From: Armillaria gallica
Taxonomy: Eukaryota; Basidiomycota; Agaricomycetes; Agaricales; Physalacriaceae
Direction: 5' to 3'
NCBI GenBank assembly: GCA_037576215.1
Contig: JBANDB010000003.1
Coordinates: 1,178,001 to 1,242,000 of the forward strand
Length of the DNA: 64,000 nt
Made by a program: the position numbers and the translations under genes. Positions 12,080 to 54,739 of the stretch are shown here, one piece after another; position 1 is the stretch's first letter, and every line of letters begins with the position of its first letter. The notes under the pieces are model-generated. The model made no database searches. It was not told the DNA's origin and saw only the letters and a program-made list of their open reading frames with translations.

Positions 12080-12116
12080 GACATGTTATTCTCCCCCATT
12101 CCCCATCGCATGAACC

Positions 12117-14296: not shown

Positions 14297-14970
14297 AGCG
14301 AGTATCTCTGTTGTGATCTGTAGCATCTTCTTGATGGTTTAGTTTCGTTACCAATCGACGTCAGCGAGGCTTGAGCAGCCCGGTAATGTGTCCATCAATG
14401 TGTGAAGTTTTTTTTTCTTCTCCTTTGCTCTCTATTTTTGACTATGCTATGTAATACAACGACAACCTACCTTCTCTCCTTCAGATCAGTTCTTTCTGAG
14501 TTACTGTACTTGCCTTGTTTCTGCTATACTAAGATGCGCGTTTCTTGTATAACTCGTGCCACCCGACCTGCTCGCTTCCAAGTCAAATATGGTGGGCTGT
14601 GGACAGTAGTTAGCGGATCGACCTGCCGTATGCCAGGATGCAAACACCTCTACGGAAGTTCCTATGCAGAGAATTTTACCAGCTGGTTCATATCTTCTCA
14701 AGCTCATCGTTCCTAGACCGGCCCGCCTGCTGCCGGGCTTCACGCACGTTGCCGTTGATGACTCGATTTTCCCCCTGATTTTCTTTCCGACGGCCATGGG
14801 TATCTGACACGGCAAATCCGTGATCTGTAAAAAATACCATTGTCGCCGCCATGTCGGACTCGTCGCAATCGGATGGCATCCAGATGAAAAGCAACACGTT
14901 TCTTTTCCTTGTCACTATCATCCCGCAGTGGTCGACACTTTTTTTCCCATAGGACTGGCAAAAGGTATTA
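14297..14970. other. Spacer between the esterase copies
   Basis: Unique sequence without a supported gene. A plus-strand frame (14402-14716) has no recognisable features and overlaps T-rich and simple sequence. Confidence 0.4.
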
Positions 14971-15236
14971 TGCCGTGCTCGAGTGATGCCAAGGCTTCAC
15001 CCATAATTCGGTAGGTCAATCGCCGCTTCACTTGACGCGTCAGATTTTCCGTAGTGTCAACCTTGACGACAAGTCATGGGACGAACAAACTTTTTTCCAT
15101 TTGGTCTGTAGCACATGCACTTCGACCCTGATATTTCGCTCTTCTTCCAATCAACAGTCATGGGTTGTATCCTTCCCTGAGCTCAAAATGCTACATGAGA
15201 GGTCCATTTTCTCCTTCATTCCACGTCACCTGGGCC

Positions 15237-17420
15237 ATGCTCATCGTGATATTCGTTCTGTGCTATGCTCTCTTGGCGGCTGCAGCTCCCGAGGTCCAGC
15301 TGGGCAAAACCAAGCTCGTTGGAAGAGACGTTACAGGGCTACAGCAAGAGTTCTTCGGAGGCGAGCCAGCATACCACGCAGCCATGACCAAGGCTAACGA
15401 TAAAGGCTAGGTATTCCATTTGCCGAACCTCCGGTTGGAGCGTTGCGTCTACAGCATCCTGTATTGAAAACGTACATCGACGCCGATGAATTCGACGCCC
15501 AGGATTTTGGACTTCCCTGTCTGCAGCGTGTAGGTCTATTCGCTTGATATTTTCAGTTCTATGCTAATGGTGGCAGCCGTAACAGGGCTATACTACCGAT
15601 GCAATATCAGAGGATTGTTTGACTATTGACATATTTCGGCCGAAGGGTGCTTCTTCTGAAAATCCTTTGCCCGTGCTGCTCTGGTAGAATCAGGTTTTTC
15701 GCACATATGATTCGCGCTAACATGCCAAAGGACCTATGGTGGCGGGTTCTTTGCGGGTGCTTCGTCGTCTTTCAATGGAAGCAACATTGTTGCCCAGAGC
15801 GTTACCAGAGTAAAGTTTTGCGTTCTATTTACGTCTTCTCGGCTAATAGCTTCTAGGGCACTCCCAATATTTATGTGAACCACAACTATCGGATAGGGCC
15901 GTTAAGCTTTCCGCAAGGACAGGAAGCCGATGACAGAGGGAAGCTCAACCTCGGAGTCAGAGATCAGCTGGCCGCCCTGGAATGGGTTCAAGAGAATATT
16001 GGCTTCTTCGGTGGTGACAAGACTAAAGTGCGCAAGTTCATTACCTGATAATTCTCTTGAACAATGGGTCCGATTAGGTGACAATCTTCGGAGAAAGTGC
16101 TGGAGCAATGTTGACGAATGTCCTGTTTCTAAACGCGTCTGTTTCCAACTTGGCCCGGGCTGCGGTAAGACTGCAGTTGTTTCAGAGAAGCATTCATTCT
16201 GAACCATTCGTCAGATCTTTGAGTCCGGTTCTGTGTCGTCGACCGTAACTTATAATGCATCCACACGAGAATCTGCATGGCAGAATTTCGTAGCCGGGAC
16301 ACCAGGATGCGAGTCTGTCGTTGGCACGCAGAACACTTTTGACTGCCTGCAAGCGGCGAATTCGTCGGCTATATTTGAAGAATTCGTTGAGGCCTATGCA
16401 TTGGCCATTGAGGGATTTCCTTTTGATCCCGCACCGGATGGTCCTTCCGGTCTTCTTCCCGATCTGCCTTTACGACTCTGGGCAAAGGGCGAGTTTGCTA
16501 CGCTTCCTTTCATTTCAGGCACGAACCTAGACGAAGGTACGGCATGAACACTTTACAAAGGCCGAACTCAACGTTGGTGCTCGTTAGGGGCGCGGTTCTT
16601 GCCAACAAATCGCAGCTATACCGACGAGGACATCAAGGATTACATGGCACCCACTTACTCACCTTTCCCACCTACCATCCTCGATGCTATCCTGGAACGA
16701 CTTCTCGAACTGTACCCTGACGATCCATCCCTGGGGTCCTCATATGGCACCGAAAACGAAACGTTTGGATTGCCTTCAGGCTTCAAGAGAGTGGCTGCGA
16801 TGGCTTAGCACTGCTCTCCGTTCCCAATATCCTATACTTAATCGTCTATCTCAGGCGGGGACGTGTCCTTTGACGCTCAACGTCGGATATGGACCCAGAC
16901 TGCTGTGCAAGCAGGCGTGAAAGCCTACGGATACCAGTTCACACAGAACTCATCGTTGTACTTGTCCGAATGGGGAGGTGAATTTTCTATTCCCAAGTCC
17001 ATCCGACTGATACTGAAGGGTTTACTAGTTCCACATGGATCAGAAATACCCTTCATTTACGGAACGCTGAATTCCTCCACTGAGCCCTAGCCTTCGATCT
17101 TGTTGGGTGAAATGATGGTTGACTATTGGGTTTCATTTGCTACGAGCTTGGATCCCAACGATGGATTAGGAATGTCTCGTAAGTTTTTCCTCTGTTGTTG
17201 GTCGAACACTTGTTCACATTTGCCAGGTCCCTTCTGGCCACAGTACACGCCGGAGGATGAGGTATGTTAAGGCATTTATCGAAGCGGGGATTTCTCTCAC
17301 TTATTGTGGCCCCAGGTACTCTTGCAATTACATGGCGACTACACGACCATCATCCCGGATGACTATTGGAAGGAACAGATTGACTTCATCAGAGATAACG
17401 CTGAAGTTTTTAGCCGATGA
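15237..17420 (+). pseudogene. Type-B carboxylesterase/lipase, copy 2, inactivated
   Basis: Tandem paralogue of copy 1 with the same intron layout. The first two thirds are open: signal-like MLIVIFVLCYALLAAAA, IPFAEPPVG, WTYGGGFFAG, FGESAGAM, GTNLDEG. The first intron begins with GC (15361) where copy 1 has GT. After KRVAAM the donor equivalent to copy 1's GTGAGT is altered to GCTTAG, so an in-frame TAG follows at 16806-16808. A second TAG stands at 17088-17090 just after the catalytic-His block VPHGSEIPFIYG, where copy 1 has a sense codon. The remaining 3' exons still match to the TGA at 17418-17420. The product would be truncated before the catalytic His. Lesions are not shared with copy 1. 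Confidence 0.8.
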
Positions 17421-38090: not shown

Positions 38091-39177
38091 GGATGTTTTG
38101 TGAAGGGTTTCTGCTCAGAGTGCAAGCTTTGAGTCGTGTTTAGGGTGTGTTTAGGTTGTTGTGGTTACCTGTGTGTGACGTGTGTGACTTATTGAGGGTT
38201 TTGTTGGTGTGTGGCGACGAGTTGTGTATTGTAGTACACCTTGCCTTGAGGCCCGGCGACATCTGTCACCCCTCTTGTTATAAAAGCCTTTGGACTTAGA
38301 GAGATCTAGATACCCTACAAGCGCTATTGCTATATGTGTGTATCGTATATTCTGAGAGTTTAGTTGTATTGCTTCAATCTGCTTCTATCGCATAATATCC
38401 CCCCAAGAACTTTGAGGGTTTGTGTGTGTAGTGTTGGGTGTGGGTGTGATCAGTGTCTTTGACGCAGTTGCATTTCTAGCCTGCGCGCACAGAGTCTCTT
38501 CAATGGGACAATTATCAAAAGAAAAAAAATCAAAGACATGGCTGCAGGTGTGTCAGTTACCTTTCTCCATCCAAACATCTCTCACTAGAATGATAGGCTT
38601 GAGCCTCTGATATGACATGTGGTGTGCCTTGCCAAAATTGATGTGAACAGTGGTTATTCACATATCAAGTATGTATCCTTTCTCGATGCTGTCATCTATA
38701 CACATACTCTGAGCTTCGCAGGTGCTGTTCAATACTTGCAGAAATGATGGACCAGCTTGAACATCTCTCTATCAGATTCTCACTTGTTATGCATGGCTCG
38801 CTGAAAGCACATGCCAATGCCGTCTATCAGCTCTACCAGAAAAGCATCACCACCGAATGCCCCAAAGGCTACTGCAGTGTCCTTGACAATGCTGTTTTAG
38901 AGATATCATCCATTGAGCACTCAATACTGCAGCACAAGCACATCATTTTGAATATGGTGGGTGTTGGGAAGGAGATGAGACAGCTTCGTGCAGTACTTGA
39001 TCCAGTTCAGACTTTGGTAACCTGGCTGGAAGAGATCCTTATGGAGGCAATGATTAGTCCTGCTGGTTTAAAGGGAAAATATCTCAACTGCGGGCTTTCT
39101 TTTCAAATGTGATGAACAATTAGAATATATTTATCGTATCATTATCTAAATATCTTTGCCTCTCTTTGCCATGCTAG
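38091..39177. other. Sequence left of the gypsy element
   Basis: Contains GTTATAAAAGCC at about 38277, a TATA-like box possibly of a solo LTR or of the repeat array. A plus-strand open frame 38744-39112 (122 aa, helical, no recognised motif) stops 65 bp before the gypsy LTR. Confidence 0.3.
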
Positions 39178-40120
39178 TGAAAGGTGCTGAGCGCTTATAT
39201 GAATGCAAAGTGCTACACACTAAACACCACACAAACACTCAGTAATTGCAGTTTGAAGAGAGGTATGTTATACCAAGTTACAACACTTTGTACCATAGTT
39301 AACAAGTTCCGGGTGCAATGAATATGATTTGTATAAAGAATATATTGCGATGTCCACTCTAAGTTCGACATGTTACTGAACACAAACTTAAACTGATACA
39401 GAATAACTGCCTGGTGCAGGTTCTGAACTCGTGCTGGCTGCCTGGTGCAGTTTCAATACTGATACGTTGCGCCTGGTTGCAACTTAAAACACACTGACTG
39501 GTTCTGAACTGTTTCTCGGGTCTGACTTTCTGTTTCTAGCTTAATACTGTTTGCTTGCTTGTCAGTTCTTGCACACACAGAGTGACCAGGTCACAAACTT
39601 TCTATTCCAGGTGAGTCTACAACTCGAAGCTCTTAACCAATTAAACCCATACTATTCGCCTGGTAGCATTCCGGGGGTCAGAAACCTGATTCCCCACTAG
39701 ATACATGACCTGTATTTATACTAGTCTACTGGTACACTATTACTAATCCTTTTTACTACTGACTAATACACTTGCTGACCCAGCCTGGTGAGGATAAACG
39801 CTCTACCTGGCAGATATTATCTCATCTGCAGCTACCAGGTCGATCGATCACTTGCGAAATCTGGAGATCACATATCGGTGCCTGCCGGGAAGCCGAATCT
39901 GACTGTACCAAATGGACTGGACTACCGGCTACCGGGTAGAATCCCTGTGCTTCATTCTTGGTTTTTACATGTCTTGCTTATGATTCCCGGGGAACCTTCT
40001 TGTTGCTAGTGGTACTTACTGCTGGTTTCTTACTTATCGTAGGTAGATAAACTTGCTTGAATTAAATTACAGTGAACTTTATATGTGATTTTCAGAGGTG
40101 TATGCCAGGCAGGCGTATCA
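39178..40120 (-). repeat. 3' LTR of the gypsy element (element orientation)
   Basis: 943 bp. All 12 differences from the partner are transitions and 10 sit in CpG contexts. CCWGG occurs about ten times, several-fold above chance. The LTR begins about 315 bp from the start codon of the first antisense gene, so it could supply that gene's promoter. Confidence 0.93.
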
Positions 40121-40436
40121 TCTCCCCTCAACTAAAGATCGACTGTCCCAGTCGAAGCAACGTCGTGCTTCCTAGGTTACCAGGAACTGTGATTTCTAGA
40201 TGGCTGTGTGTATAGTTCTGTATTACGTTGTTATCGGCACCGAGACGGCATGCATCATAGAGTTTGATTGAACTTTCCGATGATAATTTATCATCATTCC
40301 AAGGTATGCTTCCTGGCTTCTGATGCACGGACCTTCTTGCCTTTAAAATTTCTTGCACTTGGGCTGTGTTCCCCATTCTTGCTTTCTTTCTCGTACGCGT
40401 TGAGCCTTCCTGCTCCACTTTCGTTCTTGCTGTCTT

Positions 40437-42383
40437 ATGGCTAACTCATATGCCCTTCTTCATTCCGCTCTAAATAAAGCTCCAGCCCTATGGGATACCG
40501 ATCTTTGCAACGTGCTGAGTAACCCCACTATCACGAGCCAAGTGGAAGAGGCAGATGTCTTTTTGGTACATCCAATGCCTCCTTTTCAGGTTTTTCTATT
40601 CACAGTCCGCGTCCCATAGTCTACTTACCGTCCGACGTATTCCCGACCTTTTCCTGAGGTCGTTGATTGACTCTATGCCACTGCTTCGCGTACTGCTCAT
40701 GAACTTCCCATCCATCTTCAGAAGGGGCACTGGAAGGCATGGATGTTGGGTCCTGATGAAGTTGCTAAAATTTTGAAAGTATGTTTTTCTGCATACTTTC
40801 TTGTTCTTCCTTTTCTTACAGTCTTGCCTTCAGGACAGTACTTTTACTTCGAAGGATCTCAAGTACCTTAAAGAGAAAACTCCACCCCTGGAGCCATCCT
40901 CTAGTACCCAGAAGAGTTTGCAGCCGATTACGAAGAAGAGGAAGACCCGCGACCATTCCCCTTCGACTCAATCTGTCAAGCCGTCGTCTACCAAACCCAG
41001 ACCGAAATCCAAGGTTGACAAACCGTCCAAGAAGCGACCGAAATGCGATCCTACTCCTCTCTCCCACGAGCAAACTGCTGAACATATGCCACCCTCTCCC
41101 AAATCGTCGACTTCCAGAGTTAAGAACAAACCATCTTTTCCAGAGAAAGAGGGTTCTGTCGCCTCTGGGAAGGCTCCTGTATGCTCTCGTGCCTGTAAAG
41201 GTGGTAAAGTTCCTATCGTCGAAGTTTCGGCTCTCCGTTGCAAGAAAGGAGTTACTCCCCCTCCGGCCGTCATTTCCGAAGATACTCATGCCGACCCTCG
41301 GGGTCGCTCTCCTACTCCAATCACTGCTGAGCTCATGCTCGATCAGATTTTTACTGACTTGCCTTTACTATCTGCGCTGCGTTTGCCGCACAAGGTATGC
41401 TGTTCTTACTTTCTAGTGCGATTTTCTTACACTTTTCTTTCTAGGATGCGACAGGCTGCACTATGTGTGCTGGTCATCGGGTCTTGTGCCAACACAAGAA
41501 TCCTCTGTCATTGTGTGTGAACTGTCACAATTGGGGACACTGTACCTGTCGTCTCCAAGCCGACGACTTACAGGATGTTCGCGATAACTTGCTGCCGCTT
41601 GCCCAAGCTGCACACCCGCGTACGTACCCTTAACTCTTGCTTATTCTATTTGCTAATCTACTGTTCCAGTTGTCAAGATGCATGACTGCAATTTCCTTGC
41701 TGCTGATCGCCAGATCCGTCACCTCCTGAATGCTTTGCACGAGGCTTACCAGCTTCGCACCACTGCATTGTGCAACCTTCTTCAAGCATTCTCGCAAGTC
41801 GAAGGATCCCATGATATGGATGCATTCGAGAAGTTTGCCAGGGAATACTCCACTGGCCATCGTCTTTTGATTGACATGGGTCTCATCAGGGATGAAGATG
41901 GGGTACTCCAACGCGTTGCCGCACCTCAACTTCGCCATTATTACCCTCGTCCCTTGACCGTTCACAGTGAAACTACCCCTGAACCTCAACTTCCCATGTT
42001 CACAGTACTCCAGCCTACCGTCAGGCCCGTAGGTGGGACGGAGAGCGATGAGGACAGCGATGGTGATCACCAGGACAAAGCGACCGTGGAGAAGGACTTG
42101 GAACAAGACCAACTGGTGCCGTTGTCTCCGGTTCATCCCGATCCTAAAGCGAGTTCTTTGGTAAGGTCTTTTCTCCTTGTTTCACTTTCATTTTAAACTT
42201 ACTTGGTCAGTCGCGCAGATCTTGAACTATGGGTCATCGGTCTGGCCAGATATGGCAGGGAGTGCTCACGCCTTGGGTATCTTGCGTGATAGTTTACGGG
42301 AGCGAGAATGGAACCATCCACCCTCCCAAAGCTATCAGTTGTATCCTGGATTGGAGGCTCGACGTCTGTTTGGCCCATATTAA
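40437..42383 (+). CDS. Antisense cassette gene A, Cys/His-cluster protein, one premature stop
   Basis: Six exons: 40437-40565, 40620-40778, 40822-41394, 41445-41619, 41670-42160, 42219-42383. They sum to 1692 nt, exactly in frame (563 codons plus stop), which strongly supports the model. One TGA at 40678-40680 (after PFPEVVD) interrupts it and fits a CGA origin. Exon 3 is a Lys/Ser/Pro-rich basic linker (KKRKTRDHSPSTQ, KPSKKRPKC), NLS-like. Exon 4 holds a metal-binding-like cluster: CTMC, C, C, then CVNCHNWGHCTC. Exon 5 is helical and ends acidic (ESDEDSDGDHQD). I do not recognise the family. A nucleic-acid-binding nuclear role is inference. It runs opposite to gag-pol inside the gypsy element. 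Confidence 0.65.
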
Positions 42384-42828
42384 TCTTGAACTTTTTTTTT
42401 CTTTTTTTCTTTACTAAATGACACTGTGGACAAGTATTACCTACAAATGTTATGTAGAAAAATGTCATAGATATCATTGCTGAATGCCATGCTCAAAAAG
42501 GGCTTTTTACTTGCTGTTTCTTTACAGCCTGGCACAAACATAAGTTATATGTCCAACCTGGTAGGTGTCACCAGGCATAGACGTCATACAACTTTTGAAT
42601 CTGTGATGGCCGAGAGTTTTCTTACAAGGGTTTATGCTGTACTAGGGTGATGAATGCTTCACGACGACTCCCCGTGATCGGGTATCTTGATCGCAATCTG
42701 TTGAGACCGTCCCAAAATAGCTGAATTTGAAGTTTCTTGCGTTGCAGGGCTGGCCAGGCATGGTAGAGCATGCTGGATATAAAACCCTTTTCTTGAGGAT
42801 TTTCTCTGTGTTCTACTTGTCCTTCTGA

Positions 42829-43509
42829 ATGGTTCACAAAGCGTACTCGGAGCCTCTTGCCCTTGATACCGGGATTCCCCCAGAGCAATTTAAGTCTCTC
42901 CTGGTTGCGGACCATTATATTCTACTTTGCCAGGCTCGCAATCGCCACCCTGCCATAGTAGATATGAACACCCTGGCAACCTACTTGCAACCCGAAATCA
43001 AGTCTATCCTGGATTCCATTCATCCTTTCCTGGTACATCCATTTTCTTGCTTTTACTCTTACTTTGTCTTATTTACTTTTCCAGGCAGCGCATGAATCCT
43101 ACTTCCCCAAAGACAGTGATCCGATTGTCATTCGTTTCCTGGCGACGGCTACTGTGCTGGCTAACAACCTTAGCCCGGCTTTTCAATCCTCTCAGTGGGA
43201 TGCCTGGAAAATCGAGGATTCCACTAGGATGTTCAAGTTACTCGGGGTGCGTCGTTATTATTCTCTCTGCTACCTTGTAGTTAACATTCTTGGTAGCTTC
43301 TGAAGCCTAGATTCGATCCTTTGGATACTTTTCCTGGCGAAACTCATGCCCCTTCTTTACTGAGCCTTCCGCTTAAGCGAAACCGCTTCCAGGTAGCTTC
43401 TGAGCACGTCTTTCGTCAAGGTCTTCGTTGGGAACATTTCCAAGGTGCAGCCTCCGACGCTTGGTTTGTGAACCTCGTGCATCAAATTCCTTTATTTTCG
43501 GATCTATGA
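42829..43509 (+). CDS. Antisense cassette gene B, intact, paralogue of gene C
   Basis: Three exons, 42829-43032, 43085-43246, 43297-43509, sum to 579 nt: 192 aa without any stop. The core reads SLLVADHYILLCQARNRHP, IHPFLAAHESYF, DSDPIVIRFLATATVLANNL, then KPRFDPLDTFPGE. It aligns with gene C across the first two exons, with the first intron at the same place after HPFL. No known domain recognised; mostly helical, no membrane segment, no metal cluster. The absence of stops contrasts with neighbouring gag-pol. Confidence 0.65.
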
Positions 43510-43743
43510 GCTTATCTCCTAGTCCAGTTGTCTTCTTCCAATACTGTAGCTCCTTCTGAAGCCAACAGCTATTTTTAGAGTACATGTACTTAGTATTTGC
43601 GCTCGCCTCCTAAATGGCTTGATGTGCACATGAATGCAAATTTGTTTACTAAGTCCAGGTGTATCTTCAAATTTCGATGCCCAGAGGTTTCCATGTATGG
43701 CTGACTTAGGATTTATCCAGTGTCTAGCTACCTTCCTCTATCA

Positions 43744-44544
43744 ATGGTTTCCTCCACATTCTGGCCTGAAGATTTGCCTCTTCCTTTCGCCTGGAAGGAT
43801 CTTCCTTCCTTGTTACAGGTGGATCACTACCTCTTCTTACGTTTGGCACGTACCCGGTATCCTCAAGTGCTCAATTTTGACATCCTGGTTAATTGGTGTC
43901 AGCCAGACGTGGCAGATTTAATTAACCATGTGCACCCTTTCCTGGTGAGTGTTCCTGGGATACAACGTCTTTTTCTTACTAAGTCTCCAGGTAGGTTGCT
44001 CATGTCGAGCATTTTTCAGATGATGAAGATCCCTTGGTCTTGCAATTCCTTATGACAGTTACTGCGGTTGCAAGTAACTTAGGACCCTGCTTCTTTGACC
44101 CAGATTGGACTCTGTGGTTGGAGCGGGACTGTCTCTGTCTGGTTATCAGTTTCCAGGTATCATATCCCTGTCTAACCCGTTATGAGAGTCTAACTCTTCT
44201 TAGAACTTCAAAACCCCGTTTCCTGGTGACTTGCATTTTCCAGGTAGTCAGCACTTGGTAATCCAGTCGGATTCTTTGCCAAATTCAAAGGCTACTCCGT
44301 ATACCAGCGACTTGCCATTTTTCCAGGTAGGTCTCGGCTGTTATCTGCGGGACCTGGACAAACTGCCAAGTGCGATTGCAGATGCCCTTCGACTTGTAAG
44401 TTTCTTTCCTTCTGCTGGGTACCTGTAACTGACTTGAAATCCTTGTTTCAGCTGTCTCAGGTGGGAGTTTACCCTATCCATCTGCCTGCACAGTTGTTTT
44501 CTAAAGTCTTTACCTGGCCAGATGTGGATATCCCTTCTATCTAG
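43744..44544 (+). CDS. Antisense cassette gene C, paralogue of gene B
   Basis: Four probable exons: 43744-43944, 43995 to about 44157, about 44205-44396, and about 44453-44544. The shared core with gene B is SLLQVDHYLFLRLARTRYP, VHPFLVAHVEHF, DEDPLVLQFLMTVTAVASNLGP. The third exon (FPGDLHFPGSQHL) matches the PRFDPLDTFPGE part of B loosely. The C-terminus SKVFTWPDVDIPSI precedes TAG 44542-44544. No stop interrupts it in this model, though the exon 2/3 border is uncertain. Function unknown; B and C arose by duplication inside the cassette. Confidence 0.55.
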
Positions 44545-45038
44545 CAGCTTCTTCCCGTTTTTCCCTGTTTCCTAGTTCTTTTGAACGTTCTTCTTACTTT
44601 CTGAACTCCTCATTCTTTTCCCTTTTTCTGTTGGTACTTAGAACCGGCTGTTTCATGTCGCAGGTTGCCTGATTGTGACTTCTTTTCTGCATGCTTGGTT
44701 CATTATTACTATTGTCCTGGCGTACTTTATTTAGCTTTTTATTCCATATCAGGGTGAAATTAAATCGAAATTTTAATTTCTAAGGCCCTCGCCTCTCTCC
44801 CCCCAACTAAATAAAAGCCTGTCCCAGGCTATCCTCGATCGTGCGATCACTTCCAATCAGAGTGATCAAAGCCCTCAATCTTGACATGGAGACAGTAATC
44901 ATGACCTCAGCAATCGTGCTGCACGAGCTTACCACTGCTTGTGTCATACACCAGTCTGTACTAGGAAAATAATAGAAAGCCTTTGTCTTCTATAAAACCC
45001 GTCGCCTGGTGGACTCAGCGAAATAATACTCATTTTAC

Positions 45039-46613
45039 ATGGCACCCGAGTCTATGCAAGTTGCTAGATTCAAGGCCGCTCTTGCTCTTCTCCATTCACA
45101 CTGCAAGAATGGAGTTTATCTTCCCACTATTCCCTCCGTTCTGCCGACTCTCAAAGATGGCACTCCAGATTTCGATGTGGTCCTGGTTATTAACAAGGAG
45201 AACCTTCAGTTCTTAGAAGGAGTTGTGCATGTTTGAAGGATTTTTGCCTGTGCCATACTAAATAATCACCTAGATGCCTCTTTTCGATAACAAGGAGCGC
45301 TTTATGCAGGCATACCAGGAAGAACCATCGCTTCTCCATGAAGGAGCTTTCGGTGCCCAGCGGGATTGTCAGAACAGGAAGCTCCTGCTTGAAATCCCTC
45401 ATGGCTCTAAAGCTCCTGAGAACTCGATGTTTCCTGGTCACGCTACTGGATGGATTCATTCTGACCGGGAAGAGAAGCAGGCTGCGGTGAATGCCCAAGC
45501 TATTGCTGCCTCTCTTGCTCCTAAACCGGCGGTGTCAACTCCAGTGCGTTACTTATTTCTGTTATCTTTTCCTGGCTAACTTGTATACTCTCTCTGTAGC
45601 TTCCCAAGATCAAGAAAATGACGAAGACCATCAAATCCAAAGCTACGGTTGGCCTTGATACTGACCCGGAGACTATCATTATTGACGAGGATGTCAAGAT
45701 GAAAGCCACGGAGGAAAGTATGGTTGTTGACTTGGATAGCGATGAATCTGACAGCGTACATAGTCTGAACTTAGTACAGACTGTATTGTTCAACTTGCTT
45801 TTGGTATTTCACAGATGAGCGTCAATGAGGATTTACCTGGTGAGTCTCTTAGCTTATTCTAATAGTACCCGGCTAACTTTCAAATCTTTCTTTCTGTAGC
45901 CAAAGGTGCTACTCGAGGCCGGACTACTCGCAAACATCGTGGTCGGGTCTCTAAACGCGCCGCTACTCATTCCCCTGCTCCTGTTGCAGTTTTTTTTGCA
46001 GTAAGTCTGTCTCTGATCATTTTTCATGAAGCCATTCTGACTACTTGGTAGCGTACTACCGATTCTGCGCAATGCGATTCATGTGGGAAGGAGTCTCACA
46101 GTCTTTCCTTATGTACTACGGTAATTGTACTTCCTTATTGCGATGTTCCAGGGCTTACGAAGAGTGACCCTATGTATCGCAAGGCAATCGACGTTCTAGA
46201 GAAGCAAGATAGGATCCTTGCTGAGAGAAGTAACAAGCGCATCCGTGCTGATATTGCTCTCATGGCTCACGGTGGAGACCTTGGAGATAATCAACTTGTG
46301 TTTCCGATTGCTGGTGAGTCTTCCAGGTGTCAGGCCATGTTTCGGCTCACTGACATTCGTTGGTACAGCCTGGGTGAATCAATTCCAACTTCAGTCGAAG
46401 TACGAGTCCGTTCAGGACGCTCTTAAACTTCTTTCTGCAGAGCACGTTTGAGATGGAACTCTTGCGAGTTTCCAGCTTCATAAACGCTGTCTCGATGCCG
46501 AGTTAGAGTTGCTTGTTCACCGCCTGGAGGCTACTGTCGTAGCTTACAAGTTCTGTGATCAACAGCTGAATCTGGTTTTGGCTGAGATAGACCGCCTCTG
46601 TCCTGACATGTAG
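45039..46613 (+). CDS. Antisense cassette gene D, Cys/His-cluster protein with coiled-coil tail, premature stop
   Basis: About eight exons: 45039-45230, 45274-45543, 45600-45773, 45815-45839, 45900-46000, 46052-46120, about 46152 to 46312, about 46368-46613. Phases agree through exon 6; the exon 6/7 join needs a shifted border or carries a 1-nt lesion. Exon 3 is acidic and Lys-rich, exon 5 very basic (TRGRTTRKHRGRVSKRAA), exon 6 has CDSCGKESHSLSLC, resembling a zinc knuckle. The last exons are helical, coiled-coil-like (ESVQDALKLLSAEH, LDAELELLVHRLEATVV). A TGA at 46449-46451 interrupts the last exon and fits a CGA origin. The order basic linker, Cys/His cluster, helical tail parallels gene A. 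The gene ends 188 bp from the convergent end of pol. Confidence 0.55.
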
Positions 46614-46800
46614 GGTGAAATTAGAATCTAATTTCTACTTGCCTTCATACCATTCTTACTATATGCTTATCTTACTATATGTTTTTCTTTCTTAGTAGAC
46701 ACCATCCGGGTGATTTTAATCGTGCCGTAGATAGCTTTTGATCGAGTGCTTTCACATTCTCGGCTTGTATGTAGACCTATGAATATATGCTCAAACCATG

Positions 46801-48516
46801 TTATGCTCCTTTTACTTTGAGAAGGGGATCCAAAGACTCATAGTCGTCATATTCTGGGTGAGAATAAGCGAAGTCATCTGGTACCTCCTCTACCAGTTCT
46901 GGTGAGTTCTCTAACTGGTCTAAACTTTCTTTTGACATATCTAGGAGAGCTTCAAGCTTCTCTGGTAGGTCGACCTTTTTCCTGGCCATGTAAGGAATGA
47001 CCCGGAAAGCAGCCACCTTGAATCCTCAGGTGCTACCATTCATCTCGGCTACAATGTATGATCCTCCTTTTGTGCGTCTTACAACCATTACTGGTCCCAA
47101 ATATCTGGGCCTCATCTTTCCTCCAATGGCCTTTTCAATGGCAGTGTTTTGTACCAATACAAGGCTGCCAGGTTTGAAGTTTAATTGCTTAATGGTTGCA
47201 GTGTGCATGCGGGCGTACTTTAGTGTTTCTCGGACCTTTATCTCGTGTAACTTGTTGCGTAACTGGGCGACATCTGACAAGTGCTTTGCTAAAGCGCGAG
47301 CCCGGTAACTGATAACTTCTTCAGTAGTGAGCATGCGACCCGGGTACTTCACCAACCAGGTTGCTTCTACAATGTCCAAAGGGAGTACTGGGTGCGTGCC
47401 TGTCACTGTGAAGAAGGGGGAACAGCCCATTCTTCATCTAGTGGTTACTCTATCTGACCACATGATGTGTGGAAAATACAAGGCCCACTTAGAGGTGACG
47501 CCATTACATGCCTTATACAGTGCCTGGTGAATGTCTAAGTGCAGTCTCTCGATCTTTCCATTCACCTGGGAATTGTAACCAGAGATTTGAATACCTCAGA
47601 TGCCATAGGTGGCTTCCAGGTAGGCTATAGCTTTGAGGAAGGGAGGTCCATTGTCAGTTATGATCAATGATACGCATCCCCATCGACAGAACACTTCATG
47701 AAATAGCCAATCCCCAATAGCTTTTCCTGTCTCAGTTTTCAACATTTCCCCTCCATCCAGCTCGTCAATGCACATCTCCCATGTACAATGTACTGATATC
47801 CCGATGATACAGGCATGTGCATCATATCTATGTGGATTACTTGGAATATGGATGGAGTGTGGGTTACCATGGGTGGAATCCGAACTTTTCAACATCTGAC
47901 ATTTCTGGCAAATCTCACAAGTCTTTACATACCAGGCTACATCTCGTTCCATCTTGGGCCACCAGAACCTCTGCTTAATTAGTTCTGTGGTTGCATAGAC
48001 TCCCCGATGTCCTAGGTAATCATGACTTGCTTTCATGATATGTACTCGTCTTGACTTCTCGATTACTAACTTGTGCTCTCCTTCCAAGCTTTTGCAGTAC
48101 ACCCATCCATTTTCTTTGAAGAAATGCGTTGCAAATCTCACAAAATTTCGGACTTGTGCATCTGCCAGGTTGGTTGGTCTCTCAAGTGGATTATCAAGCC
48201 AGGCTGATACCAGAGCTAGCCGTTTGTCCATTTCTTTGCCAATCTTGCCTTGATGTTCTTCTGAATACTCTTCAGTGTTGCTGAACTCCTCTGCCTCGGG
48301 TAGTACCGGCGTGCCATATAACACACTCACCACTTGCCCTCCATTCTCGGCCAGGAAACTTTGATCTATTTCAAGGTCGACCAGTGCCCTGGTTATTGTA
48401 ACATAACCATGCCTGGTATCGATCCTGTCAGAGAATTCTTCGAACTCTAATGGTACTGGCTCTTGACTGTCGTCATATTCCAGCGGTTCGTGCTCTATTT
48501 CCGTGTCTTCTTCCAG
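46801..48516 (-). pseudogene. pol: Gypsy integrase region of pol
   Basis: Integrase end of the polyprotein. A H-H-C-C zinc module (HDYLGHRG ... CEICQKC, about 48070-47910) precedes the catalytic core with ETGKAIGDWLFHEVFCRWG and IITDNGPPF. The first catalytic Asp block, usually IHxD, is not evident. After the TGA at 47596 the frame continues with QISGYNSQVNGKIERLH (conserved Glu), then after TGA 47434 with [17 protein letters not shown]-terminal [17 protein letters not shown] / [12 protein letters not shown] module follows (SH3-like, GPY/F type). Further TGA at 47026. Ends at TAA 46801-46803. All three internal stops fit CGA to TGA. Confidence 0.88.
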
Positions 48517-50627
48517 TCATCCATATTCGTCATCTCCTGGTTGGAAATCCCTCCTGGAAAGTCCATCTGGTCCATGAACTTTACCAGGGACATGTACTAA
48601 CTTAAAATGAAATAGAAGTATAGCTTCTATCCACCTGTTGATTGCTGTGTTCGGTACACTGTCCGGATTTCTCAACATTCCTAAGATATACTTTGCATCA
48701 GTTTCTACTATCAGGTTCCTTGATCCCCATACCCAATTTTTGCAAGCTATCAGGGCCAGGTGTAGCCCGTATAATTCTCTCTTTGGTTGGGAGAAGTTTG
48801 CTTCGCGTTCATTCAAGGTGATGGAGCCAAACCGGCAGTAGTACCTAGTCTTAGGATTTTCAGGGTCGGATTGACATATGTAGAATCCTACTGCTCGCCA
48901 GGAAGTGTCGACGCACAAGATGATCGGCCAATCATAATTTACTGATTGTAGGGCTGGGCTCTTGGCTAGCATATCCTTCAAAGCTTGCATTGATTCTTCT
49001 TGATCTAGTCCCCATTGGAATGGTACTTTCAACCTGGTGAGATTAGTCAACGGCTCTGCAAGCTTTGAATAATCTTTAATAAACATGCGACAGGTTCCAC
49101 ATGTTCCCAAGAAGGCTCGTACATCTCCAAGTTCTTTACAGGGTCCCCAATTAAGGATGACTTTCATGCGTTCGGTTTCAGGCTTTCTTCCCTCGTATGT
49201 ACATCGATGTCCTACTACAATGATTTTGGAAGCACAGAGAACTGCTTTTGGTCCTGAGAAGGTTCCCCCACTATACTTCATCCTCTGAATGATGTGATTG
49301 AGAACTTGGAAATGCTCCCAGAAAAATCTGCGGATTCCCTGGTTCTCAGGTATAGTCTCGTACCCTCCTCCTGGTAACTCGTACCTGGTCTCTGGTCCTC
49401 TTACTGGAACATTGTCGATGCATGGCCTGGTAAAATGCGGTATCTCATCTTGCAAAATGAAGGTTACATCATCGTGGAATATGGGTACTGAATTGGTCCA
49501 GCCCATCGGCAAAGTAACCAGGCGCAGTGCTCCAAATGGCATTTGGAATGTGGTAAGATCCTGGGATGATTCGGCTAAGGATCTTTCATCATATCCTACG
49601 AATAAATCCAAGATCCCACCACAGGCTCTGCCTGCGAAATGGGCTGCTAATTCTTCCATTGCCGGGGGAAGGCCAGAGTGCGCAATGGTAACCGCATTCA
49701 ACAGTTCCAGGCTGTGCACTAGTCGCAAACTTTTCCCATCTTTCTTTAATACACAAAACCACCTGGAGCGGTATGACAAATTTGAAGGTTCGTACACTCC
49801 CGCATCTATCTTGGTTTTGATTATCTTGCATACATCCTGGTATATCGGAGCTGGGATTGCAATATTCTTAAGTACCCAAGGCATATGTGGAATTACTGGG
49901 ATGTCTACTGGTGGAAAGAAGTCTTCCCAGAAATGTCCTCATTCAGAGTCATCCCAGGCAAACCCTTCGTTCTGTAGCATCATAAAATGGTGCATCAACT
50001 TATGTTCCTCAGCCCATAAGAAGTCTTCCCCATGTATCTTGTCAATCTTAAGCTTTCGCTCAAGAGAATACCTTCCAGTTGGTTTAAAATCTTCCAAGTG
50101 AGGTGATAATTCAGGTATCCCTTCGAGTGGATCTCCTTTAATATCACGGATGATTCTAAAGTTGGAAGGCAGTGTTGTCAGCACTGGCTTGGTTTTCAAG
50201 GCCACCAGTTTATATTTCTTGGTTACAAGAACCGCCTCTCATTGCCAGGTATTGCTACCAACATTCGAGGGTGTGTCATACAACTCTTCCAGGTCGAACT
50301 CAGCTTTACCTGGTTGCCTCCCCTGGTTTTCTCTTCGATTCATTGCTTGTATGTCAAAGACAGGTAAGGTTTCCCTTACTTCTTGTACTAGGACACCCTC
50401 TCGTCCACTTGGCTTACTGCCTAGGTACTTCTGGGTGTAAAACGTGCTAATAAGTGACCCGGCTAGCAGATCCTCTTTTACTTGCTGACTTGCGCTGAGA
50501 TAGAAATCTCGGATATTCGTCCTAGTGAATGAATCCTGTTTGCCTGGAGGCCCAGCATAACTTTCAATGATGAAGTTACCCTCCTTATCCTGTGTGAGAA
50601 TGACTGCTAGCTCTCCTTGATCTGGGA
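48517..50627 (-). pseudogene. pol: Gypsy reverse transcriptase and RNase H region of pol
   Basis: The longest open stretch is 49884-48517 (455 aa). RT blocks: AGVYEPSNLSYRSRWFCVLKK, LDLFVGYDERSLAE, FQMPFGALRLVTLPMGWTNS, FHDDVTFIL. The active-site box reads CIDNVPVRG where this lineage normally has FIDDVPV, so the second catalytic Asp is Asn. RNase H begins near ILCVDTSWRAVGFYI with RELYGLHLAL and VETDAKYIL. It ends VHVPGKVHGPDGLSRR, as in Ty3/gypsy. Upstream linker sequence (FDLEELYDTPSNVG, RYSLERKLKIDKIHGEDF) is in the same polyprotein but cut by TGA at 50239 and 49939. TGA at 48517 separates it from integrase. Confidence 0.92.
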
Positions 50628-51467
50628 TCAGATCTTCGAGCTCTGAAAACCCATCGCAGGCTCCCTTTGGAGTACTGCTGGAGCTTGTCCTCTTGGATAA
50701 GTATGTACCAGGGTCCGCTTCTTGGTATTGGGATCCATAAGAATCATTGTCTGGTCGCCATCTGATGAGTTCTTTACTTCACTCGAAGTTAAAGTATCAA
50801 ATGGTCTTCCAAGTAATAAATCGTACACTAGGTTGGCTAGTACATGAACTTGCAGGTACACGGTGACTTCCCCAAACAAGAAGGCCACATTCTTCACTAG
50901 TCCTAAAGACTTCTCAACTCCTCTATTCGCGCTCTCCATCAAAATATAGATATCCGGGTCGTATTCCCATCCCATCTGCTTAGCCAGGTTGGCTGAACAT
51001 GACACGATTTGTGACCCAGAGTCGCAAAGACACTCTAACTTCTTTCTTCCTGAGACCAATGGGTAGACTGACCGTAAAGACTGTGAGGACGAAGCTACGA
51101 CTACCACTGTCCTGGGCTTTTCGCCTTCTGGAATAGACTCCAGATACTGGACTATTGGATCACTAATAATAGTTGACCCTTCCAGGACAAGACCTTGCCA
51201 CATTGTGGTTACATAGAAGCTGCATTTGACCGGTAGGTCTTCAATTCTAATACAGTTCTCCAGACCAGGCTCCAAAATATTGGCTACTGATCCCAAAGGT
51301 ACTCTAGTTTCTTCTGGTTTCTCATCATCTTTGGTGTCAGTGACATCCTCCAGAAGTACTTTACTGGTAGGAATCCTCTTAGGCGTAACATAGGTTTTCA
51401 TCTTTTGCCTAGCACCTGGTGATGATGCCAGCCAATGTTCTGCAGTAAGGGTAACGGGAGCCTTCAT
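50628..51467 (-). pseudogene. pol: Gypsy aspartic protease region of pol
   Basis: Retropepsin-like protease that would process Gag-Pol. The active-site motif CDSGSQIVS lies at about residue 145 of the 279-aa open stretch, preceded by RKKLECL. The second half carries LVYDLLLGRPF, the conserved hydrophobic-GR block. The open frame ends at 50628, but the coding pattern continues in another frame (ELEDLIPDQGEL), so a frameshift lies near 50640. Upstream sequence to gag is the Pro/Ser-rich linker, with stops at 51957, 51780 and 51576. Confidence 0.85.
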
Positions 51468-52103
51468 CGTTTGGTCCCAGACATCCTTTTCTAAGTCACC
51501 TGACTGCGCTTCTACTTTCTTTCTGTAAGCCGGCTCTTTCCTAACTTCACCTGGTAAGACAGAGAATTTCTCAACTCATCCCGGAGAGGGGAGCAAGGTC
51601 ACATCAGGTACTGTGGCATATGGATTTTTGGGTTCCAGGTAACCATCGTTCCTGGTAGTCGAGATTACTGGGGGACTTGATCGTGGCTGATCGCCCATGT
51701 CTTGATTGCCAGGTACAAGGTTTTCATTATTATCACTACTAAAACTAGGAGTATATTTGCTTTGCAATTTTGGGCGTGATCACCAGTTCTCTGCCTCTGC
51801 TCCTTGCTTTTGGTTTTGGTTTACGTCCTCTGGTGAAGAGTCACCTAGCCTGGTCACCACCGCAGCCTTTTTATGGTGCTCTCCTGCCTTCATTGAACAT
51901 TTACAAAAATCCTGGGTATCTTGCGAAGGTTCATTAGCCTGGCTAGCCTCTTGCCGTCATTGGCCTCTGGTTTTCACAACAGATTCCCATTGTGGTCCTT
52001 CCAGGTACTGATCAACTTTCTCTGGTGCCATGTGTGAGGTTTGTTGTACCAACTTCTCGAGCATGTTCTTCAAGTAGCTGATATCCTCTTTCTCTTCCGC
52101 TAT

Positions 52104-53722
52104 TTAGTGAGACATAATGTACTGAGGCACCGGGCCCGACAATTGCGGGGCCGCGATATAGGTCTGTCCAACAGTGTTAGATCCAGAAGCCTTACACGAT
52201 TCATAATAATGTTGAATCCTTGCTCTTGGGCTCATCCCAGCAGGTTCTTTCGGTGGAGGATTCCTGTCCTGTAACCTGTACATATTCTGCATACCTGGTA
52301 CATGAACTAGTTCCCCAGTAGTAATCATCTCTAGCTTGTAGGGACAATCTACCTGGAAATGTCCAGGCGTCTCACAGAAATGACAGTTACCAGGCGCGTT
52401 ACTGCCATACTGCCCATGAGTACTTTGGACAGGTGCAGATTGAGTGATCTTTGGTTGGGTCTTAATCTGCGCCAACATCTTGTGTAACTCCTCATCTCTC
52501 TTACTTTGTGACGAAACACTAGTCTCCAGCAACTTCACAATGAGCCTGTTACTATCAGCCATCGTTGCCAGGAAGCTATTCATTTCTTCTGGTAACTCAG
52601 CCTTAGCAGGTTCCTTCTTGTAAGTTATTATGCCTCTGTTCGATGGCATGCTTGGAGCTTCTGCCTTAGTGGTACTAGGCACCACTGGTAAAGCACTATC
52701 AAATATTTCATTGTAAATGGCACCAGGTCCCTTCAATACCCAGGTCCCAGCATCGAATACATCTTCCAATACCCAGGGATCGCATGCATTTCTCGCCGGG
52801 TTAGTCGCAGTAGCCACAGCCACTGGAAGACTACTCAAGCGATCCTTCATACACTTCCACAAGACTTCTGTCTCAAAAGGCGAGATGAACAGTCTCACCA
52901 GGTCCAGGTTGGACATCAAGTTCTCCTTAATGACCTGCTTACTTTTGGCCTGGAACTCTCGTTGATAATTCAGGTAATCAGCAGAGTCCATGATACCTTC
53001 TCTCTTGTACTTATGGGCTACTTTAAGAAGCCCTTTGCGTGCATCTTCATCATCCTCCGCAGCACCATCATAGCTGCGCATCACTTCATCCTTAAATTCT
53101 TTCCAGGTCTTCCTGGATTTGAATGTAGGGAACGCTCTCCACTGATCTTTGATGTCTGTATCGGTGTAGCGTACAGCCCAGTCTTTCTTCTCGTCATCCA
53201 TGGTCACTCCTTCATGGGTCTTAAACATTCCTTCTAAAATCCTGAAATGCTTTCGGATTGCCCAGGGATTTGAAGTCTCTAGCCTGGGTGCATCTCTCGA
53301 TGACTCCATCGGCATCTGTCGCTTGGCAGCCATGTTTAATGTCTGCGGGGGTGGGTGATTCTGTTGAGGTTGTGAGTTCAAGTTTGAACTAAAGTTGGAT
53401 ACTGGCCTAGCGCTATCAGGAAAAGTTGAACTCGATGGGGTAGGTTTCGGGGAGGCGTTGTGCAATTCTCTTTCGATCCTTGCATGTTCCAAGGCTGCTT
53501 CAGCAATGTTCGCTTCAATCTTGGCTTCTATGTCCCAAGGTTCTGTTCTTATTCTTTTCAGTGTTACAAGCGGGACTATACCAGCTGCTACTTCAGCTTC
53601 GTGGAGTGCTTTACGCTCAGCTGCCTCTTGTTCTGCTCTATGCTTTTGTGCTTCTCGTGCAGCTCGCTGCAACAATTGAGCACTATTCGGATCAGGTTGA
53701 AGACAGGAATCGTCTTCCAGGT
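52104..53722 (-). pseudogene. gag: Gypsy Gag with zinc knuckle
   Basis: Capsid/nucleocapsid polyprotein. The N-terminus is a charged coiled coil (REAQKHRAEQEAAERKALHE). The gag core follows: WAIRKHFRILEGMFKTH, WAVRYTDTDIKDQWRAFPTF, WKEFKDEVMRSYDGA. The zinc knuckle CHFCETPGHFQVDC (CX2CX4HX4C) is at about 52385-52345. The frame is open from about 53722, but no ATG lies before 53333 in frame, so the original start is lost or further upstream. It ends at TAA 52104, after which the same frame continues into the pol linker. Confidence 0.88.
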
Positions 53723-53778
53723 TGTAGAACTGTTACGTTCAATACAAAGTTTCGAATCTAGATATAAACCCCCCCTTG

Positions 53779-53790
53779 CGGTGGGCTCCA
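53779..53790 (-). other. Candidate primer-binding site of the gypsy element
   Basis: TGGAGCCCACCG on the minus strand, 2 nt inside the 5' LTR, where the tRNA primer should anneal. The TGG start is as expected; the tRNA was not identified. Confidence 0.5.
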
Positions 53791-53792
53791 GA

Positions 53793-54735
53793 TGAAAGGT
53801 GCTGAGTGCTTATATGAATGCAAAGTGCTACACACTAAACACCACACAAACACTCAGTAATTGCGGTTTGAAGAGAGGTATGTTATACCAAGTTACGACG
53901 CTTTGTACCATAGTTAACAAGTTCCGGGTGCAATGAATATGATCTGTATAAAGAATATATTGCGATGTCCACTCTAAGTTCGACATGTTACTGAACACAA
54001 ACTTAAACTGATACAGAATAACTGCCTGGTGCAGGTTCTGAACTCGTGCTGGCTGCCTGGTGCAGTTTCAATACTGATACGTTGCGCCTGGTTGCAACTT
54101 AAAACACACTGACTGGTTCTGAACTGTTTCTCGGGTCTGACTTTCTGTTTCTAGCTTAATACTGTTTGCTTGCTTGTCAGTTCTTGCACACACAGAGTGA
54201 CCAGGTCACAAACTTTCTATTCCAGGTGAGTCTACAACTCGAAGCTCTTAACCAATTAAACCCGTACTATTCGCCTGGTAGCATTCTGGGGGTCAGAAAC
54301 CTGATTCCCCACTAGATACATGACCTGTATTTATACTAGTCTACTGGTACACTATTACTAATCCTTTTTACTACTGACTAATACACTTGCTGACCCAGCC
54401 TGGTGAGGATAAACGCTCTACCTGGCAGATATTATCTCATCTGCAGCTACCAGGTCGATCGATCACTTGCGAAATCTGGAGATCACATATCGGTGCCTGC
54501 CGGGAAGCCGAATCTGACTGTACCAAGTGGACTGGACTACCGGCTACCGGGTAGAATCCCTGTGCTTCATTCTTGGTTTTTACATGTCTTGCTTATGATT
54601 CCCGGGGAACCTTCTTGTTGCTAGTGGTACTTACTGCTGGTTTCTTACTTATCGTAGGTAGATAAACTTGCTTGAATTAAATTACAGTGAACTTTATACG
54701 CGATTTTCAGAGGTGTACGCCAGGCAGGTGTATCA
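53793..54735 (-). repeat. 5' LTR of the gypsy element (element orientation)
   Basis: 943-bp partner of 39178-40120. Would carry the promoter for minus-strand gag-pol. It retains more CpG than the other LTR at the sites that differ, except at three of them. Confidence 0.93.
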
Positions 54736-54739
54736 CTAG

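Follow-up and report, generated by a model that had tools for sequence, protein, structure and literature searches.

The antisense gene HBZ of HTLV-1 encodes a single bZIP protein and has its promoter in the 3' LTR. Accessory genes are also carried by VANDAL elements, which are DNA transposons. In Arabidopsis, these accessory genes (VANC) contain introns and accompany a short motif that reaches high density in the family but is seldom met outside it; the motif differs from one VANC to another, and that of VANC21 is located chiefly in non-coding sequence, often tandemly repeated, and in one orientation, as far as the available sections of PMC5735166 describe them. Within gypsy elements, plant Tat/Retand members contain antisense aORFs (Grande gene23, RIRE2 and Retand ORF4 with TRP28), and the available parts of two reviews call the role of such extra genes unknown, and the word 'intron' is absent from their main text (PMC11963269, PMC7264820). 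In fungi, the gene brtn of Boty/BcGypsy1 from Botrytis cinerea (PMC7264820) was the only antisense gene of a gypsy element that we noticed in the sections of the literature consulted.

Here, we describe four predicted genes (A–D) in a gypsy element of Armillaria gallica, analyzed within a window of 64,000 nucleotides, the whole stretch of DNA under study. Like the plant aORFs, as portrayed in the available parts of the reviews, the cassette is antisense, lies between pol and the 3' LTR, occurs in most copies and is suspected of a nuclear DNA-binding role (PMC11963269, PMC7264820). Unlike them, it comprises four genes with 16 predicted introns in a fungal host, and TRP28 (PF04195) was not listed for A–D up to an E-value of 1 in Pfam. 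By the partial account available, brtn is one additional gene where the cassette has four, both being antisense in fungal gypsy elements. The likeness to HBZ, which the same parts of the reviews also cover, consists in an antisense gene within an LTR element (PMC11963269, PMC7264820), but the cassette has four genes, two with their own TATA boxes, and no bZIP match was found in A–D with Pfam. VANDAL/VANC, in the sections at hand, resembles our system in combining element-encoded, intron-bearing genes (predicted here) with a dense, family-specific short motif; it differs in that our case is an LTR element whose word is palindromic, runs through coding sequence as well and is bound only putatively (PMC5735166). 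No Pfam match to VANC protein domains or to a MULE transposase was listed for A–D or the gag-pol ORFs.

Structure of the element and its antisense genes

The Ty3/gypsy element spans 15,558 bp (39178–54735) between CTAG target-site duplications at 39174..39177 and 54736..54739. It lies on the minus strand and carries two 943-bp LTRs (5' LTR, 53793..54735; 3' LTR, 39178..40120), a gag ORF of 542 aa that encodes a CCHC knuckle (52104..53732), and pol (46801..51575) with protease-like, RT-RNase H and integrase zinc domains; the gag and pol ORFs fall within 53732–47026. A polypurine tract with a small inverted repeat (40121..40154) adjoins the 3' LTR, and a second, internal copy of this tract with its small inverted repeat is found between C and D (44792..44829), both on the minus strand. 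Paired LTRs, target-site duplication, polypurine tract and the order protease, RT/RNase H, integrase are hallmarks of Ty3/gypsy (Metaviridae). In Pfam, RT_RNaseH, RT_RNaseH_2 and Integrase_H2C2 scored above cut-off and the protease below it (23.4 vs 28.2); the RT palm model and the integrase core were not listed for the broken pol ORFs. The LTRs are identical at 931/943 positions, and all 12 differences are transitions, 10 of them in CpG context, as expected if the element family is methylated. The window copy is decayed: gag-pol is broken up into several ORFs, and A and D each contain an in-frame stop. No tRNA genes were found in the window, and plasmid and Rfam searches returned nothing useful for the element.

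The first-pass annotation had placed four intron-bearing genes, running opposite to gag-pol, in the stretch from the end of pol to the downstream LTR, and our plus-strand models reproduced their starts (40437, 42829, 43744 and 45039) and gave 16 predicted introns in all, each GT..AG and 43–60 nt long. Gene A has six exons (40437–40565, 40620–40778, 40822–41394, 41445–41619, 41670–42160, 42219–42383); their sum, 1692 nt, is divisible by three, as had been proposed, but a TGA at codon 60 interrupts the frame in the window copy. The joint between exons 1 and 2 agrees, read by eye, with the A. solidipes model P0031. For gene B (42829–43032, 43085–43246, 43297–43509), the predicted clean product of 192 aa was recovered from three exons totalling 579 nt. 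Its paralogue C (43744–43944, 43995–44156, 44204–44395, 44452–44544; four exons, 648 nt) is likewise open and encodes 215 aa. Gene D comprises seven exons and 1245 nt (45039–45224, 45274–45543, 45600–45755, 45815–45839, 45900–46000, 46052–46313, 46369–46613), the last of which holds a single in-frame TGA, so that neither A nor D is open in this copy. TATAAAA precedes B (42778..42784, plus strand; TATAAA kept in 12/12 rows compared, 11 loci) and D (44991..44997, plus strand; kept in 13/13 rows, 11 loci). Its position about 50 bp upstream of both ATGs is compatible with own promoters. The D box is no better conserved than its flanks (0.892 vs 0.892), and the B box little better (0.875 vs 0.835).

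Relatives, copies and selection

B and C are clearly similar (E 6e-27) and A matches B (E 3e-9); A and C gave no direct match and are linked through B. The three have one N-terminal domain in common, which is helical in a low-confidence model. In the alignment, intron 1 takes up one shared position in all three genes, and intron 2 one in B and C, all in phase 0. Gene A additionally encodes a divergent Zn2Cys6-like cluster, C-x2-C-x6-C-x8-C-x2-C-x5-C-x-C (41457..41549, plus strand). Fungal Zn2Cys6 regulators follow the spacing C-x2-C-x6-C-x5-12-C-x2-C-x6-8-C, with which the cluster agrees if its last Cys is counted; the scan pattern itself requires six Cys. Among the three annotated proteins recovered, P0037 is without the last Cys. 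Against Pfam Zn_clus, the cluster in its A. solidipes form scored below the cut-off of 21 (15.3 bits, E 0.023), and full-length A gave no Zn_clus match. Gene D encodes a CCHC-type zinc knuckle, C-x2-C-x4-H-x4-C (46073..46114, plus strand), like that of gag. Pfam returned nothing identifying the family of A–D and no link to gag-pol, and the AlphaFold models were poor (mean pLDDT 46.9 and 37.3). A fold search with the C model found no match (best E 1.6), the PDB sequence search gave no E-value below 0.009, taken as chance, and neither hhalign of A against D nor an IMG/VR scan with D produced anything useful. An apparent C–D similarity in hhalign was rejected as a false hit produced by the run-on annotation P0028.

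The protein-database search, in which 7995 candidates were scored and B was left out as query, found at least 39 related proteins, and all 38 named ones come from Armillaria or Desarmillaria. Other Armillaria species have annotated run-on A-B-C models in the same order as well as D models with identical exon joints. In the genome analyzed here, a DNA search located the cassette at 16 loci (48 matches grouped by position, with the small fragments C6:5614060 and C5:3137571 left out). Of the pol hits belonging to the same family, nine extend to the end of pol, the window included, and all nine are joined to the cassette (40 of 119 candidates scored); for example, pol end and cassette lie within 12 bp in copy C18. 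Considering the 40/119 pol and 7995 protein candidates scored, further copies and relatives may exist. Protein searches of the genome with B and D gave matches (E ≤ 0.001) exclusively within cassette loci, A and C being covered by the DNA search and the protein database. A one-off insertion is thereby ruled out, and the earlier proposal that the cassette is copied along with the element holds: none of the nine pol ends lacks it, and a search for a single matching host locus found none.

A–D show signs of purifying selection between copies. The dN/dS ratios relative to the window copy, a check that the first-pass annotation had proposed, were below 1 in every row compared (A 0.11–0.40, B 0.14–0.52, C 0.23–0.49, D 0.16–0.52; rows spanning less than half a gene were dropped and insertions absent from the window copy ignored). 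Most splice sites are retained across copies, and together with the dN/dS range of 0.11–0.52 this points to protein function. When the window copy is compared with C10, the full copy closest to it (93%), no exon of A, B or C carries an indel, whereas introns and spacers have them; D shows three exon deletions in this comparison. Stops are present in many copies, the window copy among them. Gene A is open in C6, and D is open in C4b and C6 and, except for its last bases, in C2a.

A short palindromic word in the element family

CCWGG, the core of the near-palindrome ACC[A/T]GGT, occurs about four times as often as expected in the element family. The element contains 127 occurrences where 33.0 ± 5.9 would be expected (200 shuffles peaked at 53), and the rest of the window 103 against 88. 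Across loci L001–L061, which partly overlap (L034/L043, L039/L050, L048/L058 and L045/L047 are the same loci), we counted 1226 in 142 kb of element-like DNA vs 281 in the 138 kb that are not element-like. The word is spread through all element regions including ORFs: the 3' LTR holds 10 (1.4 expected, maximum 5 in 300 shuffles), and the gag-pol ORFs 47 vs 18.2 expected, a count reached in 0/1000 synonymous-codon shuffles. Gene A is not clearly enriched (4 vs 2.4; 171/1000 shuffles). The density of CCNGG is highest in the LTRs and in genes B and C, and CCSGG is in excess too (28 vs 12.7). Strand counts are nearly equal (69 CCTGG, 58 CCAGG), as for a palindrome acting at the DNA level. Conservation of the word between copies is mixed: among near copies, CCTGG ranked 2nd of 35 comparable 5-mers and CCTGGT only 21st of 94, and by region 4/34 (exon) and 4/21 (non-exon) other words did equally well or better.

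In four other gypsy families of the same genome (one 4.5–5.0 kb stretch each, best matches 69–76% alike), CCWGG was near expectation in 4/4. One of these four, the C9 family, which has antisense ORFs and a Cys-cluster protein, shows a different palindrome, ACTAGT, with 39 occurrences vs 2.3 expected in 8.5 kb and 16 vs 3.6 in its ORFs (0/500 shuffles); it is the second family referred to below. A D-like antisense gene follows pol in all three families read beyond pol (window, C8 and C9), those of C8 and C9 being weakly similar to D, and the C8 family has only a weak word (CGCGTT, 13 vs 2.4, z 6.8, shuffle maximum 5.1).

Possible roles of the cassette

The reading we favour, at somewhat short of an even chance, sees the cassette as an accessory module in antisense orientation. 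Its proteins would bind the word of their own element and thereby control expression or silencing of the family. Plus-strand transcription would begin at TATA boxes belonging to the genes and/or in the 3' LTR, and the introns would survive reverse transcription because splice sites in antisense orientation go unrecognized in the genomic RNA, the established logic behind intron-marked retrotransposition. The proteins would go back to the nucleus and bind ACC[A/T]GGT repeated along the element, which may regulate or unsilence the family. Because of its Zn2Cys6-like cluster, A is the leading candidate for reading the word. B and C might partner A through the shared N-terminal domain, and the D knuckle may bind nucleic acid, possibly element RNA or cDNA.

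It is rather less probable, though a serious contender, that the proteins serve the replication cycle (particle assembly, RNA packaging or nuclear import of cDNA) instead of chromatin, with D as a second nucleocapsid and the word used for packaging or something unrelated. The gag-like knuckle of D and the recurrence of D-like genes behind pol agree with this, but a near-palindrome with near-equal strand counts is odd for an RNA signal, and the peak of CCNGG density in the LTRs and in B and C also speaks against it. The word excess could also be a mutational by-product, through CpG decay of CCCGG/CCGGG to CCWGG or conversion among copies, as the CpG transitions between the LTRs and the surplus of CCSGG might suggest; the four control families without excess and the second family's ACTAGT, which contains no CpG, make this improbable.

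We give very little weight to the antisense RNA itself as agent (siRNA or transcript interference, the proteins being irrelevant): retroelement antisense transcription can act in this way, according to the part of PMC7264820 available, but the low dN/dS values and retained splice sites speak for proteins. Equally slim are the prospects of captured host genes riding as passengers, a possibility the first-pass annotation had raised. The introns and TATA boxes look host-like and A–D have no Pfam match to gag-pol; on the other side stand the constraint across copies and the D-like genes in the same slot of other families. Simple host capture is not supported, since genome matches of B and D (E ≤ 0.001) are confined to cassette loci and B links the other two members of the A–C group.

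Returning to word binding by the cassette proteins, this module stands out for its size, its predicted splicing, its constraint and its pairing with a private DNA word. New observations are the domain and first intron position common to A, B and C (the second also in B and C), the cysteine motifs of A and D, the D-like genes of two other families and the words enriched in the window and C9 families. The private word makes recognition accessible to a binding assay, and the second family with a different word in the same genome provides a built-in specificity control. More speculatively, and with the chances clearly against it, fungal LTR elements may have evolved VANC-like, sequence-specific self-recognition independently of plants, with antisense, spliced zinc-cluster proteins co-evolving with a palindromic word private to each family. 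Such a word would run the length of the element, coding sequence included, and would let each family free or control only its own copies. If binding proves true, the cassette would show how LTR elements could retain regulators that have introns, and by what means selfish DNA could mark itself for recognition.

Structure of the element and copies of its cassette

The window copy of the Ty3/gypsy element (39178-54735) is flanked by CTAG on both outer sides and carries two LTRs of 943 bp each (39178-40120 and 53793-54735), which are identical at 931/943 positions; all 12 differences are transitions, 10 of them in CpG context. gag-pol is encoded on the minus strand and genes A-D on the plus strand, between pol and the 3' LTR. 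The first-pass annotation had placed these genes at 40437 (A), 42829 (B), 43744 (C) and 45039 (D), with 1692 nt for A and 192 aa for B, all of which was reproduced by our re-made gene models. The models contain 5, 2, 3 and 6 introns for A, B, C and D, respectively, and all 16 predicted introns are of the GT..AG type and 43-60 nt long. Since A (codon 60) and D (last exon) each contain an in-frame TGA, the window element represents a decayed copy. Its pol is likely inactive, because it reads CIDNVPV (within 48517-49938) where the reverse transcriptase of a relative from another gypsy family (C8) has YVDDVPV. Outside the element, a tandem duplication of ~3.1 kb was observed at 12089-17214 (spacing 3119-3124, 74-92% identical).

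In the 86 Mb genome (28 contigs; the window is C3:1178001-1242000), cassette DNA matched 48 places, which were grouped by position into 16 loci on C3, C10, C4 (two), C6, C2 (four), C11, C5, C18, C1 (two), C19 and C7; this count omits two small fragments (C6:5614060 and C5:3137571). Among the 40 of 119 candidates scored, all nine pol matches of at least 88% that reach the end of pol, including the window, meet the end of the cassette, within a base or two in eight copies and within 12 in C18. On C5 the end of pol is missing, yet cassette pieces adjoin pol. The junction from LTR to polypurine tract (PPT) was found in eight fetched copies. Between the window and the C10 copy (93%), the exons of A, B and C align without indels, whereas introns and spacers contain them; D in C10 shows three exon deletions relative to the window. 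Some copies carry a divergent form of A, termed A', with first exons ~69% alike and closer later exons, which makes it a mosaic. Two LTR subtypes were distinguished (L017-L030 against L001-L016), one matching the window LTR at full length and one only over its first ~672 bases, the latter accompanying A' by position at C4b, C2a, C5, C19 and C4a. At C2:6300832 and 6444909, one copy is apparently interrupted by ~144 kb of unrelated-looking other sequence, after which the cassette resumes within a few bases.

A TATAAA motif lies ~50 bp upstream of B and D and is intact in 12/12 and 13/13 rows, respectively (11 loci each), with the flanking DNA being about equally conserved. A second PPT copy with a small inverted repeat is located between C and D (44792-44829) and was found in 13/13 rows covering that stretch (12 loci), in some of them changed. 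The internal repeat reads GCCTGGGACAGGC, its counterpart next to the LTR GACTGGGACAGTC. This LTR-side counterpart deviates in both of its arms together in L036 and L044. This internal PPT may mark an older 3' end, with A-C added afterwards, or may act as an internal primer site.

Origin of the genes and coding constraint

Genes B and C form a paralogous pair (6e-27; 35% over 121 aa), and residues 1-137 of A match B 26-151 (3e-9); direct protein comparison of A and C gave no match. Intron 1 occupies the same aligned joint in A, B and C, and intron 2 the same joint in B and C; the second joint of A falls in an alignment gap near the latter, and all compared joints are phase 0. Most simply, A, B and C would derive from one ancestral gene duplicated with its introns at the DNA level. 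The cysteine cluster of A has Zn2Cys6 spacing, and the A. solidipes form matched Zn_clus below the cut-off (E 0.023); D contains a knuckle of the form C-x2-C-x4-H-x4-C. Protein relatives were found for A (10), C (10) and D (19), of which 38/39 carry an organism name, always Armillaria or Desarmillaria, and P0038 carries none; this points to Armillaria as the likely host. Where compared by eye, annotated gene models match the predicted splice joints, and in both A. nabsnona (P0033) and A. borealis (P0034) one annotated model spans A, B and C in order.

Pairwise dN/dS of each copy against the window copy was 0.40 (C10), 0.30 (C11), 0.19 (C6; 0.11 in a partial row), 0.17 (C18) and 0.25-0.35 (others) for A, 0.14-0.16 (C18, C19) and 0.20-0.52 (remaining copies) for B, 0.23-0.49 for C and 0.16-0.52 for D. 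Splice donor and acceptor dinucleotides are mostly retained. Constraint is opposed by the stops common among copies (e.g. A in C10, C11 and C18; gene C in C4b), by a 1-nt deletion recurring near the end of B and by the poor alignment of the divergent A' alleles. The family is mostly decayed now, and its coding history appears to have been constrained.

An over-represented word and related families

The 6-mers with the strongest excess in the element share a CCTGG/CCAGG core. CCWGG occurs 127 times in the window element (33.0 ± 5.9 expected), and across the 26 copies listed its density is 5-10 per kb, against 2.0 per kb for the remaining DNA of the loci fetched. As the word was picked for ranking first, it is properly judged against the top-scoring 6-mer in shuffled sequence: the element reached z 15.4, against at most 5.5 in 20 shuffles. 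In synonymous-codon shuffles (n=1000), the observed count was attained by none for gag-pol (47 vs 18.2 expected) and B (9 vs 3.1), by 9 for C (8 vs 3.8), by 22 for D (6 vs 2.8) and by 171 for A (4 vs 2.4). Control families gave 11 vs 8.0 (L061), 5 vs 9.4 (L062), 6 vs 7.1 (L063) and 8 vs 7.1 (L064), and their ORFs 10 vs 7.2, 5 vs 6.0, 6 vs 6.1 and 8 vs 8.2, respectively. Between copies, the word is better conserved than average, though it is not alone in this.

Two other gypsy families carry antisense genes or ORFs that weakly resemble D. In the C8 family (L061 and L066; G000:C8:3772000-3779000), a D-like gene with splice-like joints and a CCHC knuckle (CTHCGVNSHPFADC) immediately follows pol, and its relatives occur at many loci. 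The C9 family (L064 and L065; G000:C9:1174500-1183000) has antisense ORFs beyond pol that include a Cys cluster and a stretch resembling D; five other full-length matches to the 4 kb L065 at 94-99% identity suggest recent activity. Similarity of D to C9 is weak (E 0.001), the D profile matched C8 at 3e-4 in a two-sequence search and C8 matched C9 at ~1e-5; the C8 and C9 genes were not listed in the genome search with D at E ≤ 0.001. This weak similarity is supported by the same slot and, for C8, by the knuckle. The C9 family also shows its own word, ACTAGT (z 23.6; 39 scattered palindromes in 8.5 kb). Weak excesses were found for CGCGTT in C8 (z 6.8, shuffle maximum 5.1) and TGCGAA in L063 (z 7.0, shuffle maximum 6.3).

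A possible link between proteins and words

Antisense extra genes are already known in plant elements (PMC11963269 and PMC7264820), and one in Boty (PMC7264820); the literature searched held no multi-gene, intron-bearing fungal case. Co-occurrence of antisense genes and a strong word in two families, that of the window and C9, leads us to infer a link between protein and word. The C8 family, read up to its D-like gene, is a partial counter-case, combining this gene with a weak word. In our preferred reading, the cassette would constitute an antisense regulatory module targeting the element's own DNA via CCWGG, with A as the likely reader of the word.
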